Positions 39,004 through 42,479 of a stretch of DNA of 64,000 bases are shown here, piece after piece. Source of the stretch: Herbiconiux sp. (GTDB taxonomy: Bacteria > Actinomycetota > Actinomycetes > Actinomycetales > Microbacteriaceae); contig NZ_JAHFUW010000005.1 in assembly GCF_023264855.1 (NCBI RefSeq), positions 1 to 64,000 of the forward strand. The letters are read 5' to 3'. Under the pieces are notes generated by a model, which saw only the letters and a program-made list of their open reading frames with translations, did not search any database and was not told where the DNA came from. The translations under genes were made by a program, and so were the position numbers. Position 1 is the stretch's first letter, and every line of letters starts with the position of its first letter.

Positions 39004-40320
39004 GTGACGGACGTCGATCACATCGCTCGGTCCCGTGACATCGATGGCCAGAAGGCCACCCTGACCTACCCGGGAGGAACGGCGGAGTTCCCGCTGCTGC
39101 CGAGCGTCGACGGAGCGTCGTCGATCGACCTGGCCACCCTCACCAAGCAGACCGGCTTCACCACGCTGGACTACGGCTTCGTGAACACGGCCGCCACCAA
39201 GTCGGCGATCACCTACATCGACGGCGACCAGGGCATCCTGCGCTATCGCGGGTATCCGATCGAGCAGGTCGCGACGTCGCTGACCTACCTCGAGACCGCC
39301 TGGCTGCTGATCTACGGCGAGCTGCCCTCGGCCTCCGAGCTGTCGGAGTTCGACGACAAGATCCGCCACCACACGCTGCTGCACGAAGACCTCAAGCGCT
39401 TCTTCGACGCGCTGCCGCACAACGCGCACCCGATGTCGGTGCTGTCGTCGGGCGTCTCGGCGCTGTCGACGTACTACCAAGACTCGATGAACCCGCACAA
39501 CCCCGAAGACGTCGAGATCTCGACCATCCGTCTGCTGGCGAAGCTGCCGGTGATGGCGGCCTACGCGCACAAGAAGAGCCTCGGGCAGGCGTTCCTGTAC
39601 CCCGACAACTCGCTGTCGTTCGTCGACAACTTCCTGCGCCTGAATTTCGGCAACCTGGCCGAGCCGTACGAGATCAACCCGGTGCTCTCGAAGGCGCTCG
39701 AGCGCCTGCTCATCCTGCACGAAGACCACGAGCAGAACGCGTCGACGTCGACCGTGCGGCTGGTGGGCTCCACCGAGGCGAACATGTTCGCGTCGATCTC
39801 GGCCGGCATCAACGCGCTGTTCGGGCCGTTGCACGGCGGCGCGAACGAGGCCGTGCTCACCATGCTCGCGCAGATCCGCGACTCGGGTGAGGGCGTGGCG
39901 AAGTTCGTCGAGCGGGTGAAGAACAAGGAGGCGGGCATCCGTCTCATGGGCTTCGGCCACCGCGTCTACAAGAACTACGACCCGCGCGCGAAGCTCGTGA
40001 AGGAGAGCGCCGACGAGGTGCTGGCCGCGCTGGGTGTTCAGGATCCGCTGCTCGACATTGCCAAAGAGCTCGAGCAGGTCGCCCTCTCGGACGACTACTT
40101 CATCTCGCGCCGCCTGTACCCGAACGTCGACTTCTACACCGGCGTCATCTACAAGGCGATGGGCTTCCCCACGCGCATGTTCACGGTGCTCTTCGCCATC
40201 GGCCGCCTCCCCGGCTGGATCGCGCACTGGCGCGAGATGGCCACCGACCCCCAGACCAAGATCGGCCGCCCCCAGCAGCTCTACATCGGAGCCCCCGCCC
40301 GCGACCTCCCCCCGCGCTAG
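39004..40320 (+). CDS. gltA: Citrate synthase
   Basis: The 438-residue type II citrate synthase condenses acetyl-CoA and oxaloacetate at the entry of the TCA cycle. The active-site histidines are in FGPLHGGANEAVL and FGHRVYKNYDPRA, and the catalytic Asp is in YPNVDFYTGVIY. The allosteric N-terminal domain is present. The GTG start at 39004 is set by the strong AAGGAGG at 38993-38999. It is followed after 10 bases by a 27-bp perfect hairpin. Confidence 0.97.
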   Translation: MTDVDHIARSRDIDGQKATLTYPGGTAEFPLLPSVDGASSIDLATLTKQTGFTTLDYGFVNTAATKSAITYIDGDQGILRYRGYPIEQVATSLTYLETAWLLIYGELPSASELSEFDDKIRHHTLLHEDLKRFFDALPHNAHPMSVLSSGVSALSTYYQDSMNPHNPEDVEISTIRLLAKLPVMAAYAHKKSLGQAFLYPDNSLSFVDNFLRLNFGNLAEPYEINPVLSKALERLLILHEDHEQNASTSTVRLVGSTEANMFASISAGINALFGPLHGGANEAVLTMLAQIRDSGEGVAKFVERVKNKEAGIRLMGFGHRVYKNYDPRAKLVKESADEVLAALGVQDPLLDIAKELEQVALSDDYFISRRLYPNVDFYTGVIYKAMGFPTRMFTVLFAIGRLPGWIAHWREMATDPQTKIGRPQQLYIGAPARDLPPR

Positions 40321-40330
40321 CGCTCGTCCC

Positions 40331-40389
40331 TCGAGAAGTCGCAAATGGCCCCTATCCCACGTGGATAGGGGCCATTTGCGACTTCTCGA
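40331..40389. repeat. Long palindrome, copy 1 (27-bp perfect stem)
   Basis: The arms 40331-40357 and 40363-40389 are exact reverse complements around a five-base loop, CACGT. The outer 21 bases of each arm, beginning TCGAGAAGTCGCAAATGGCC, are identical to those of the palindrome at 41407-41465. It lies just after gltA and may terminate transcription, but the repetition suggests a repetitive element. Confidence 0.85.
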
Positions 40390-40469
40390 TCGGGCTGTGG
40401 AAGGGGGAGTTATGCACAAAGTGCGGGGTGGGGGGACTTGGGCGGGGGTGTGGTGGGCATGGTGGGGGG

Positions 40470-41405
40470 ATGCATCGTCCTGAGGAACTGCCTGTCGCGC
40501 TTCAGAGTGCCGCGTTCTCGGTGCGGGAGGGGGAGGCCGGCGGGCTGACCAGGAAGCGGATGCGCGCCGCCGACCTCCAGAGACCGTACTTCGGCGTGCG
40601 TCGGTGGGGGTGCGACGACGGTGATGTCCTCGAGCGCTGCCGGGCGTATGCGCCGCTCCTACGCGCCGGCGACGTGTTCAGCCATGCGACGGCGGCGCTG
40701 CTCTGGGGCGCTCCGCTGCCCATGCGGCTCGAGGCGGATGCGACGCTGCATGTCATGGCGATTGACGGCGCCACCCGCCCGCGCTCGGCCGGAGTGTCCG
40801 GTCACACCGCGGGCGACCGGGCCATCCGGGTCCGGTCGCGCCACTCCCTCCCCGTCGTGGACCCGGTCAGCGCGTGGCTGCAGCTCGCGCCGCTGATCGG
40901 GCTCGACGATCTCGTGGCCATGGGGGACTACCTCGTTCTGACACCGCGCCGCCAGAAGCGGCAGGATCCGCGGCCGTACACCTCCCGGGCGGAGCTCGAG
41001 TCACGGCTGCGGGCTTTCCGGGGGCGCGGCAAGCGTAACGCCGTCGAGGCGCTCCAGTTGATTCGTGACGGTGCCGAATCCCCGCGCGAGACCCGGCTGC
41101 GCCTTCGACTCGTGCGGAACGGGCTGCCCGAGCCCGAGCTCAACGTCGAGATCAAGGATGAACGGGGACTGCGGATCGGCTTCGGCGATCTGGTGTACTC
41201 CTCGCACAAGGTGCTGGTGGAGTACGAGGGCGAGCAGCATCGTACGGACTCGACCCAGTTCTACCGCGACATCGAGCGCCACGAACGGCTCGCCCGCGCC
41301 CAGTGGATCCTCATCCGCGAGTCCAAGGAGACCCCGCTCACGGGCCCCCGCTCCACGTGCGCGCGCACGCGCCACGCCCTCCTCTCCCGAGGCGCCCGCC
41401 TCTGA
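40470..41405 (+). CDS. DUF559-type PD-(D/E)XK nuclease-like protein, flanked by twin palindromes
   Basis: The 311-residue protein has an N-terminal segment like the winged-helix part of AbiEi-type proteins and a C-terminal Vsr/DUF559-type endonuclease fold. The motif is Asp240 in IGFGDLVY, Glu251 in KVLVEYEGEQH, then the helix STQFYRDIERHERLARAQW. This equals the DUF559 signature EYDG-H-...-D--R. The N-terminal part also has SHATAALLWGAPLP, common in the family. The ATG at 40470 follows a GGGGGG run. The gene sits alone between two nearly identical long palindromes. The biological role is unknown; such genes are often present in many copies in actinobacteria. Confidence 0.8.
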   Translation: MHRPEELPVALQSAAFSVREGEAGGLTRKRMRAADLQRPYFGVRRWGCDDGDVLERCRAYAPLLRAGDVFSHATAALLWGAPLPMRLEADATLHVMAIDGATRPRSAGVSGHTAGDRAIRVRSRHSLPVVDPVSAWLQLAPLIGLDDLVAMGDYLVLTPRRQKRQDPRPYTSRAELESRLRAFRGRGKRNAVEALQLIRDGAESPRETRLRLRLVRNGLPEPELNVEIKDERGLRIGFGDLVYSSHKVLVEYEGEQHRTDSTQFYRDIERHERLARAQWILIRESKETPLTGPRSTCARTRHALLSRGARL

Positions 41406-41406
41406 G

Positions 41407-41465
41407 TCGAGAAGTCGCAAATGGCCCTTAAACACGCCTCAGAGGGGCCATTTGCGACTTCTCGA
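41407..41465. repeat. Long palindrome, copy 2 (21-bp perfect stem)
   Basis: The arms 41407-41427 and 41445-41465 are exact reverse complements around a 17-base loop. They are the same sequence as the outer 21 bases of the palindrome at 40331-40389. It starts two bases after the stop of the DUF559 gene and lies 31 bases from the converging dapD stop. Confidence 0.85.
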
Positions 41466-41495: not shown

Positions 41496-42479
41496 CTACG
41501 CGTGGAGGGTGGGGTTGAGGGTTACTCCCGAGCCGGAGCGGGCCACGGCCTCGACGGCGCCCGTGAGGGAGTTGCGGCGGAAGAGGAGGTTGGGGACGCC
41601 GGAGAGGGCGACGGCCTTGACGATGCGGTTCTCGTCGTCGGCACCGGAGCCGTCGATCAAGACGACCTTGGTGCCGGCGGTGACGTAGAGGCCCGCCTCC
41701 ACGACGGTGTCGTCGCCGATCGAGATGCCGATGCCGGCGTTGGCGCCGAGGAGCGCACGGCGGCCGATCGAGACGCGCTGCGTGCCGCCCCCGGAGAGCG
41801 TGCCCATGATCGAGGCGCCGCCGCCGATGTCGGAGCCGTCGCCCACTACGACGCCCTGCGAGATGCGTCCCTCCACCATCGAGGAGCCGAGGGTTCCGGC
41901 GTTGAAGTTCACGAAGCCCTCGTGCATGACGGTGGTGCCGGGCGCGAGGTGCGCACCGAGACGCACGCGCGAGGCGTCCGCGATGCGCACCTTGGCGGGA
42001 GTGACGTAGTCGAGCATCCGCGGGAACTTGTCGATGCCGTAGCTCTGGATGCCGGCGCGCTGCAGGGAGGGGCGCAGGCGAGCGAAGTCGTCGGGGTGCA
42101 CGGGGCCGGCGTTCGTCCAGGCCACGATCGGGAGGTACCCGAAGATGCCGTCGAGGTTGATGGTGTTGGGCGCGACGAGCAGGTGCGAGAGCAGGTGCAG
42201 GCGGAGGTAGGCATCCGGGGTCGAGGCGGGAGCGGCGGCGAGCTCGATCTCGACGGTGGCCACCTCGACGGTCACCGCGCGACGGGCATCCGGCAGGGCA
42301 TACGCGGTGAGCTCGCCGGGGTGAGCGGATGCGGCGCCGGCGGGCACGGTGCCGAGCGCCGGTGCGGGGAACCAGGCGTCGAGCTCGGTGCCGTCGGCGG
42401 AGGTGGTGACCAGGCCGTGGCCCCAGGCGTGGCTGGGAGCGGAGGCGAGCGGCGGGGTGTCGAGAACGTCTTCAGGCAT
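41496..42479 (-). CDS. dapD: Tetrahydrodipicolinate N-succinyltransferase
   Basis: DapD commits tetrahydrodipicolinate to the succinylase route of diaminopimelate and lysine synthesis. The 327-residue protein is the actinobacterial form, with an N-terminal alpha/beta domain and a left-handed beta-helix of hexapeptide repeats from about residue 165 ([20 protein letters not shown], then [15 protein letters not shown]). Conserved pieces [10 protein letters not shown] and [18 protein letters not shown] are visible. It is divergent from dapE, with 96 bases between the starts. Confidence 0.93.

Follow-up and report, generated by a model that had tools for sequence, protein, structure and literature searches.

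Two palindromes enclose a nuclease gene between gltA and dapD

The window, that is the whole stretch of 64,000 nucleotides analyzed here from Herbiconiux sp. (contig NZ_JAHFUW010000005.1), contains a single nuclease gene enclosed by two long palindromes and located between gltA and dapD. This arrangement, claimed in a preliminary description of the DNA, was confirmed, and its features are the following:

39004..40320, + strand: gltA, left neighbour of the cassette (context, from gene calls)
40331..40389, no strand: upstream palindrome, 59 nt, 27-bp perfect arms (aligned with 14 other copies in the genome)
40470..41405, + strand: gene of the AbiEi-like/PD-(D/E)XK nuclease family, 311 aa (reading frames and alignment of relatives)
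41407..41465, no strand: downstream palindrome, 59 nt, 21-bp perfect arms, outer 21 bases as in the upstream palindrome (alignment of genome copies)
41496..42479, - strand: dapD, right neighbour, convergent with the nuclease gene (context, from gene calls)

The 27-bp arms of the upstream palindrome (40331-40357 and 40363-40389) are separated by a spacer of 5 nt, and the 21-bp arms of the downstream palindrome (41407-41427 and 41445-41465) by one of 17 nt; both pairs are perfect, each palindrome is exactly 59 nt long and the outer 21 bases are common to both. When at most three mismatches are allowed, 16 bases of the arm match the 64-kb window four times, always inside the two palindromes, against a mean of 0.5 in shuffled controls, none of which (0 of 100) reached four. 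According to the alignment with relatives, ATG 40470 is most likely the start of the gene, whose open frame also permits an alternative start at GTG 40428. The upstream palindrome ends 80 nt before ATG 40470 and the downstream palindrome follows the stop codon after 1 nt. Direct reading of the sequence found no T run after either palindrome.

The nuclease family

The window protein scores 14.7 bits against DUF559 (PF04480, curated cut-off 20.6) and 16.4 bits against MTES_1575 (PF18741, curated cut-off 38.2). The label of a DUF559-type protein given by the preliminary description is therefore kept in the sense of a distant relationship, since matches exist, and not as membership by the curated cut-offs. 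A Pfam scan of 24 family members gave MTES_1575 and DUF559 alone, matching the back half of 17 and 12 members, respectively, and no HUH/Y1 domain in any of the 24; relative L185 reached 34.6 bits against MTES_1575, and the MTES_1575 and DUF559 scores inspected among the members were all below the Pfam cut-offs. Residues in both halves of the protein are invariant in the alignment of the 24 members, which omits L161 and L171 (internal stop), L180 and L257. E207, D240 and H257 (311-aa numbering) are invariant and E251 is present in at least 90% of the members; we take these four to be the acidic and other active-site residues of a PD-(D/E)XK nuclease, a fold for which conserved acidic active-site residues are thus found in the alignment.

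Single AbiEi models match the front halves of one to five of the 24 members, the best match being residues 69-211 of L185 (2.6e-15), and none matches the window protein. At the window locus no AbiEii nucleotidyltransferase lies beside the gene, the next gene being dapD on the other strand. Structure prediction from two sequences gave a mean pLDDT of 41. To our knowledge, no function has been assigned to any homologue of the family.

Homologues were found in 80 of 120 genomes of the bacterial family to which the window belongs, with up to 12 per genome, and across the class in 127 of the 197 genomes sampled. The genome of the window has two more family genes, L031 and L032, both on contig C10: L032 shows a different palindrome upstream, while no hairpin was detected at L031, whose own flanks score 42. 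Phage or plasmid cargo was rejected as an account of the family, with matches to the window protein in three of 72,556 plasmid records and one of 50,697 phage records; a scan of viral contigs gave ten pattern matches, with no family relative among them, and no exact copy of the window arm. An unannotated contig labelled as phage, MT837503.1 (L449), has a distant member of the family with a palindrome on the downstream side only, 59 nt long and 79 nt after the stop codon. Four loci (L161, L171, L186 and L187) show an internal stop in the matched frame or a gene matched in two pieces, so that cassettes seem to decay in place.

Matching palindrome pairs at family genes

In order to compare the two sides of family genes, each upstream flank was scored against its own and all other downstream flanks, and the 99th percentile of mismatched pairs was used as threshold. 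In a first set of 73 loci, 70 of them usable, 47 own pairs exceeded the threshold and the own partner was the best of 70 at 39 loci. A larger set of 113 loci gave 109 usable ones, after exclusion of four with short flanks (L203 and L204 had been dropped as repeats of L170 and L187); 68 own pairs exceeded the threshold and 41 failed, and the own downstream partner was the best of 109 at 61 loci. Forty loci had been added blind to their flanks, and 23 of these passed. As a control, neighbouring genes were treated likewise: one of 111 exceeded the threshold, and it adjoins another copy of the palindrome that flanks the family gene. The class-wide sample, with one of its 49 loci dropped and the neighbour control covering the 111-gene set alone, gave 28 of 48 loci above the threshold, including 22 of the 40 from outside the window's own bacterial family.

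Hairpins of 44-90 nt were detected upstream at 101 of 159 loci compared with three of 129 control flanks, and downstream at 81 of 159 loci compared with eight of 60 control flanks (L294 and L296 were dropped from this survey as repeats of L219 and L284, and L308 was also left out, by mistake, as a repeat). They occur on both sides at 57 of the 159 loci and on at least one side at 125; at the other 34 none was detected. The median hairpin length is 61 nt upstream and 60 nt downstream, and the upstream palindrome stands at a median of 66 nt before the estimated start codon. Palindromes on both sides were also found in Arthrobacter sp. ERGS1:01 (NZ_CP012477.1) and Arthrobacter sp. StoSoilB13 (NZ_AP024649.1), and downstream only in NZ_AP024648.1 of the latter strain. 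At L284, in genome G093, tandem repeats of a short unit (GACGAGCGTCCCCGGCG...), apparently made of palindrome arms, stand downstream of the gene.

Across all pairs of loci, protein similarity and palindrome similarity show a weak correlation (Mantel r 0.089; one of 500 permutations as high). Alike palindromes are found in 62% of the 34 pairs with more than 60% protein identity and in at most 2% of the pairs in each lower band. Family genes tend to carry their own matching pair of palindromes, with arms that differ from gene to gene, and the general link between nuclease family and palindromes that had been suggested from one locus is supported by both the flank tests and the hairpin counts.

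Dispersed copies without the gene

Dispersal was searched directly for three arms: that of the window in its own genome, that of a cassette in genome G018 and that of the GTTGATCATGG family. The 18-base window arm, with up to two mismatches, has 29 matches in the 4.37-Mb draft genome, which form 15 elements, one of them with only one arm within two mismatches; the reversed arm, searched as a control, has one match. All 15 aligned copies are 59 nt long without a gap. A covariance model built from them (cut-off E≤1e-4) located 25 places in the same genome, 23 of 59 nt and two of 58 nt, together with one additional short match at E 0.003. The preliminary description expected the arm elsewhere in the genome, which these 25 places bear out, and expected its copies to cluster at DUF559-type genes, which they do not: two of the 25 places are at a family gene, both being the window pair, and the window arm is absent from the two other family genes of this genome, with none of the 25 places on contig C10.

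Convergent genes enclose ten of the 15 copies, most of which are no more than 40 nt from either stop codon; of the other gene pairs in these stretches, 16 of 143 are convergent (p=4.7e-6; gene calls by an in-house script). Copies C12 and C1 have the same centre in unrelated flanks, which indicates that what moves does not extend beyond the palindrome. At the 15 copies, direct repeats next to the palindrome measure 0-3 nt, and no target-site duplication was found. Neither GTAG nor CTAC occurs within 12 nt outside either end of the 15 copies; one such tetranucleotide lies inside the centre of copy C40. The inner stem pairs in this genome, with seven of 25 base pairs changed on both sides, so that the fold itself may be maintained there. 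The same covariance model gave 33 matches (both strands counted) in congener G013, where the gltA cassette is absent.

The arm of one cassette in G018, which belongs to another genus, has 18 matches in that genome. These matches correspond to 11 hairpins, 57-69 nt in length, two of which are the pair flanking the gene; six other genomes had no hairpin with this arm. The other nine hairpins, dispersed away from the gene, depart from the cassette arm at one or two bases; six of these have CCCC in place of CCGC. On contig C3 of G018 (259314-260180, L241-L242) two palindromes of one family stand 850 bp apart; this pair was considered as a second cassette and rejected, as inspection by eye found no family gene in the intervening frames.

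The third arm pair, GTTGATCATGG...CCATGATCAAC, belongs to class family f23, at a guess the Micromonosporaceae. Of 18 genomes tested, 11 contain it, with 1-52 copies each; it is absent from the other seven, three of f23 and four others that include the genome of the window. Listed copies are 58-62 nt long in a search that permitted 47-77 nt. Genome G264 has 52 hairpins of this family, and 16 of the 40 examined lie between convergent genes compared with 15 of 96 other pairs (p=0.003). This genome contains one weak relative of the nuclease family alone (6.2e-19), and no family gene was found within 2 kb of the 40 examined copies. The same palindrome is thus dispersed without the gene in the genomes tested for dispersal, and enrichment between convergent genes is seen in both genomes examined for it.

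Turnover of palindromes at gene junctions

Sixteen genomes of the genus were sampled. The family gene lies between gltA and dapD in 12 of them; in one more, where the contig is broken, it adjoins dapD. Among the 12 cassettes, ten show hairpins of 54-76 nt on both sides and two upstream only; nine have own flanks above the flank-test threshold, and the arms differ between species. The view of a cassette-like unit put forward in the preliminary description is supported. Congener G003 lacks the cassette, with gltA and dapD separated by 29 bp; gaps without the cassette measure 44 bp in Rathayibacter iranicus and 64 bp in a Microbacterium bin. No family gene was found near gltA at 79 of 80 loci from other species, the exception being Herbiconiux bin L099, whose gltA is 94% identical to that of the window. 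In G001 and G013, dapD was not found in the stretch around gltA. Comparison of the gltA-dapD interval between relatives, which had been proposed as a check, therefore shows that presence of the cassette varies.

Two further junctions, rlmB-DUF4032 and accC-lpdA, were picked since the genome of the window has a palindrome copy there. The convergent rlmB-DUF4032 junction was found in each of the 16 genomes. It carries hairpins with differing arms in five (G000, G011, G005, G008 and G010) and is empty in eight, where the gap measures -4 to 23 bp; G006 has 72 bp with no called hairpin and G002 has 1,076 bp of other DNA. In G009 (L388) the junction holds a 31-bp rest like two outer arms of that genome, as if the centre had been deleted. 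A likeness to the palindrome at a known family gene of the same genome was seen for the hairpins of G000 and G005 only, and no cognate gene for those of G011, G008 and G010 was found among the loci fetched. The genes accC and lpdA lie close together in the genome of the window, G011, G005 and G002, and the first three have a hairpin between them, that of G005 resembling G005's own cassette palindrome. The gap in G002 (L355) shows instead an ordinary intrinsic terminator hairpin with a T run. Related species differ in whether a particular junction holds a palindrome.

Fixed length and possible exchange of halves

Of 50 listed copies in G264 (52 in all), 47 are 61 nt long, two 60 nt and one 58 nt, and in the inner 19 nt or so (positions 22-40) pairing is not above the chance given by the letters of each column. 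Taking the listed palindromes together, total length is held near 58-62 bp though the centre varies. A hairpin fold as the conserved feature was rejected on the grounds of these G264 data; a fixed length around a non-pairing centre points to two proteins on duplex DNA at a set spacing, and binding of the duplex fits better.

The halves of the centre were analyzed in G264, the three of 50 copies that are not 61 nt long being left out. Its inner 10-nt halves give 129 half pairs within one mismatch, compared with a mean of 45 and a maximum of 66 after column shuffling. Among 1,081 pairs of elements, 110 share one half and nine share both, and no element has two like halves. The 37 copies from fetched DNA give 62 pairs that share one half and three that share both. 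The commonest half occurs six times, and in the fetched copies it is joined to four partners, no two of them the same. Such recurrence of halves with differing partners suggests that halves may be exchanged at the palindrome centre.

Discussion

The nearest known system is that of REP/REPIN sequences with their RAYT (TnpA-REP) genes and REPtrons, in which dispersed genome-specific palindromes flank a chromosomal nuclease gene and are enriched between convergent genes near stop codons (PMC3733652, PMC8266576). The preliminary description had drawn this analogy, with a different nuclease fold. Short, dispersed, genome-specific palindromes occur here too and flank a chromosomal nuclease gene, copies are enriched between convergent genes close to stop codons, and the family gene is almost absent from plasmid and phage records. 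A gene flanked by cognate dispersed palindromes, as in REPtrons, is found in the genome of the window and in G018. The differences are that this family is without an HUH/Y1 domain (none was found in 24 members), no GTAG was found at the ends of the 15 copies in the genome of the window, the unit is 58-62 bp with two inverted arms instead of a tagged hairpin of 20-40 bp, and the system was found in Actinomycetes. Because of the missing HUH domain and GTAG ends, a separate class is proposed here rather than membership of REP/RAYT. CGTC-tagged REPs, described in PMC3733652 as dispersed 20-40 bp tagged elements without a known dedicated transposase, are alike in being dispersed palindromes without a known transposase, but their small tagged units set them apart by description.

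The second comparison is with the type IV toxin-antitoxin system AbiE. AbiEi binds an inverted repeat in its own promoter, with 11-bp arms separated by N27 and 49 bp in all, and the bound promoter lies within about 60 bp of the AbiEi start codon (PMC3985639). The front half of some family members matches AbiEi models, and the palindromes, about one helical turn longer and a median of 66 nt before the start, appear to resemble the AbiEi operator in geometry. Unlike AbiE, the family has a fused nuclease half, a palindrome behind the gene as well as before it, and copies dispersed through the genome, and no AbiEii lies beside the window gene. The back half is like DUF559/MTES_1575 nucleases, with the difference that the window protein falls below the Pfam cut-offs. 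As for insertion sequences, no target-site duplications were found and, with the window arm, only the palindrome is multicopy and not the gene. In the open-licence PubMed Central literature we found no paper tying this nuclease family, or DUF559/MTES_1575, to palindromes, although others may exist.

These comparisons suggest a palindrome-nuclease system of Actinomycetes that is REPIN/RAYT-like but built on an unrelated enzyme, with palindromes that frame the gene and palindromes that are dispersed, a reading to which we give a probability of roughly 0.55. As AbiEi does at its own inverted-repeat operator, a dimer of the protein would bind double-stranded DNA through the front halves and contact both inverted arms, which would explain the fixed length of the palindrome; the nuclease half would then cut at or near the variable centre, and repair against other copies would spread palindromes and swap their halves. 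The gene itself would be chromosomal and inherited in place like domesticated RAYT genes, with the short palindromes as the mobile part, and copies would survive mostly between convergent genes, where they are presumably harmless and may also end transcription. Self-propagation by the family protein is plausible from the sequences, and binding, cutting and spread of palindromes are the activities that they lead us to predict for it. Several results were counted against this explanation: the 41 of 109 loci that fail the flank test, the 34 of 159 without a hairpin and the weak Mantel correlation; the copies in G264 and G013 without a close family gene and the three congener hairpins without a matching one; the departure of the nine dispersed G018 copies from the cassette arm at one or two bases; and the lack of an AbiEi match in the window protein and of abutting direct repeats longer than 3 nt at the 15 copies in its genome.

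An alternative that we consider unlikely is that the palindromes are binding sites of an autoregulated DNA-binding nuclease and that the dispersed copies are functional, for example as barriers between convergent transcripts, their sequence tracking that of the protein without any spreading by it. The AbiEi-like front half of some members and the AbiEi-like position of the upstream palindrome agree with such operators or insulators, as do the accC-lpdA hairpins in the genome of the window, G011 and G005, the last being like its own cassette. However, neither the palindrome that follows the stop codon nor the copies at convergent junctions are in promoter positions, eight of 16 genomes of the genus have an empty rlmB-DUF4032 site, and C12 and C1 carry one centre into unrelated flanks.

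It is also rather improbable, in our estimation, that the palindromes are mobile through another enzyme, or through repair or replication slippage, and that the nuclease is tied to them by binding or regulating them. The many copies in G264 and G013 without a close relative of the gene adjoining them, and the lack of target-site duplications at the 15 copies, would suit another mover, but the tendency of family genes, and not of their neighbours (1 of 111), to own matching pairs argues against it. Ordinary bidirectional intrinsic terminators as the sole role are very improbable and were rejected because of the matching pairs, seen at family genes and not at neighbours, and the copy upstream of the nuclease gene, to which genome-specific arms and the fixed length with a non-pairing centre in G264 are added, even though strong hairpins do stand at gene ends between convergent genes, eight of 60 control genes also have a downstream hairpin and the accC-lpdA site of G002 has an ordinary one with a T run; a side role as terminator may exist.

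Returning to the palindrome-nuclease system, a bolder proposal, which we put forward tentatively and with some doubt, is that AbiEi-nuclease fusions would be a second, non-HUH class of palindrome-propagating enzymes. Each would recognize an inverted-repeat duplex site of its own at a fixed helical spacing and cut the centre, and repair against other copies would spread palindromes into gene junctions and reshuffle their halves, so that an operator of the toxin-antitoxin type would have turned into a genome-wide selfish or domesticated repeat in Actinomycetes.

The palindromes supply many of the homologues of this nuclease, which occur in 127 of 197 class genomes, with a predicted DNA target. 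If the system is as proposed, REP-like repeats would have arisen twice, the second time around an unrelated enzyme, and there would be a source for many of the unexplained palindromes that lie between genes of actinobacteria. AbiEi-type operators would furthermore be linked to mobile repeats, and the family would provide sequence-specific nucleases whose specificity can be read off.
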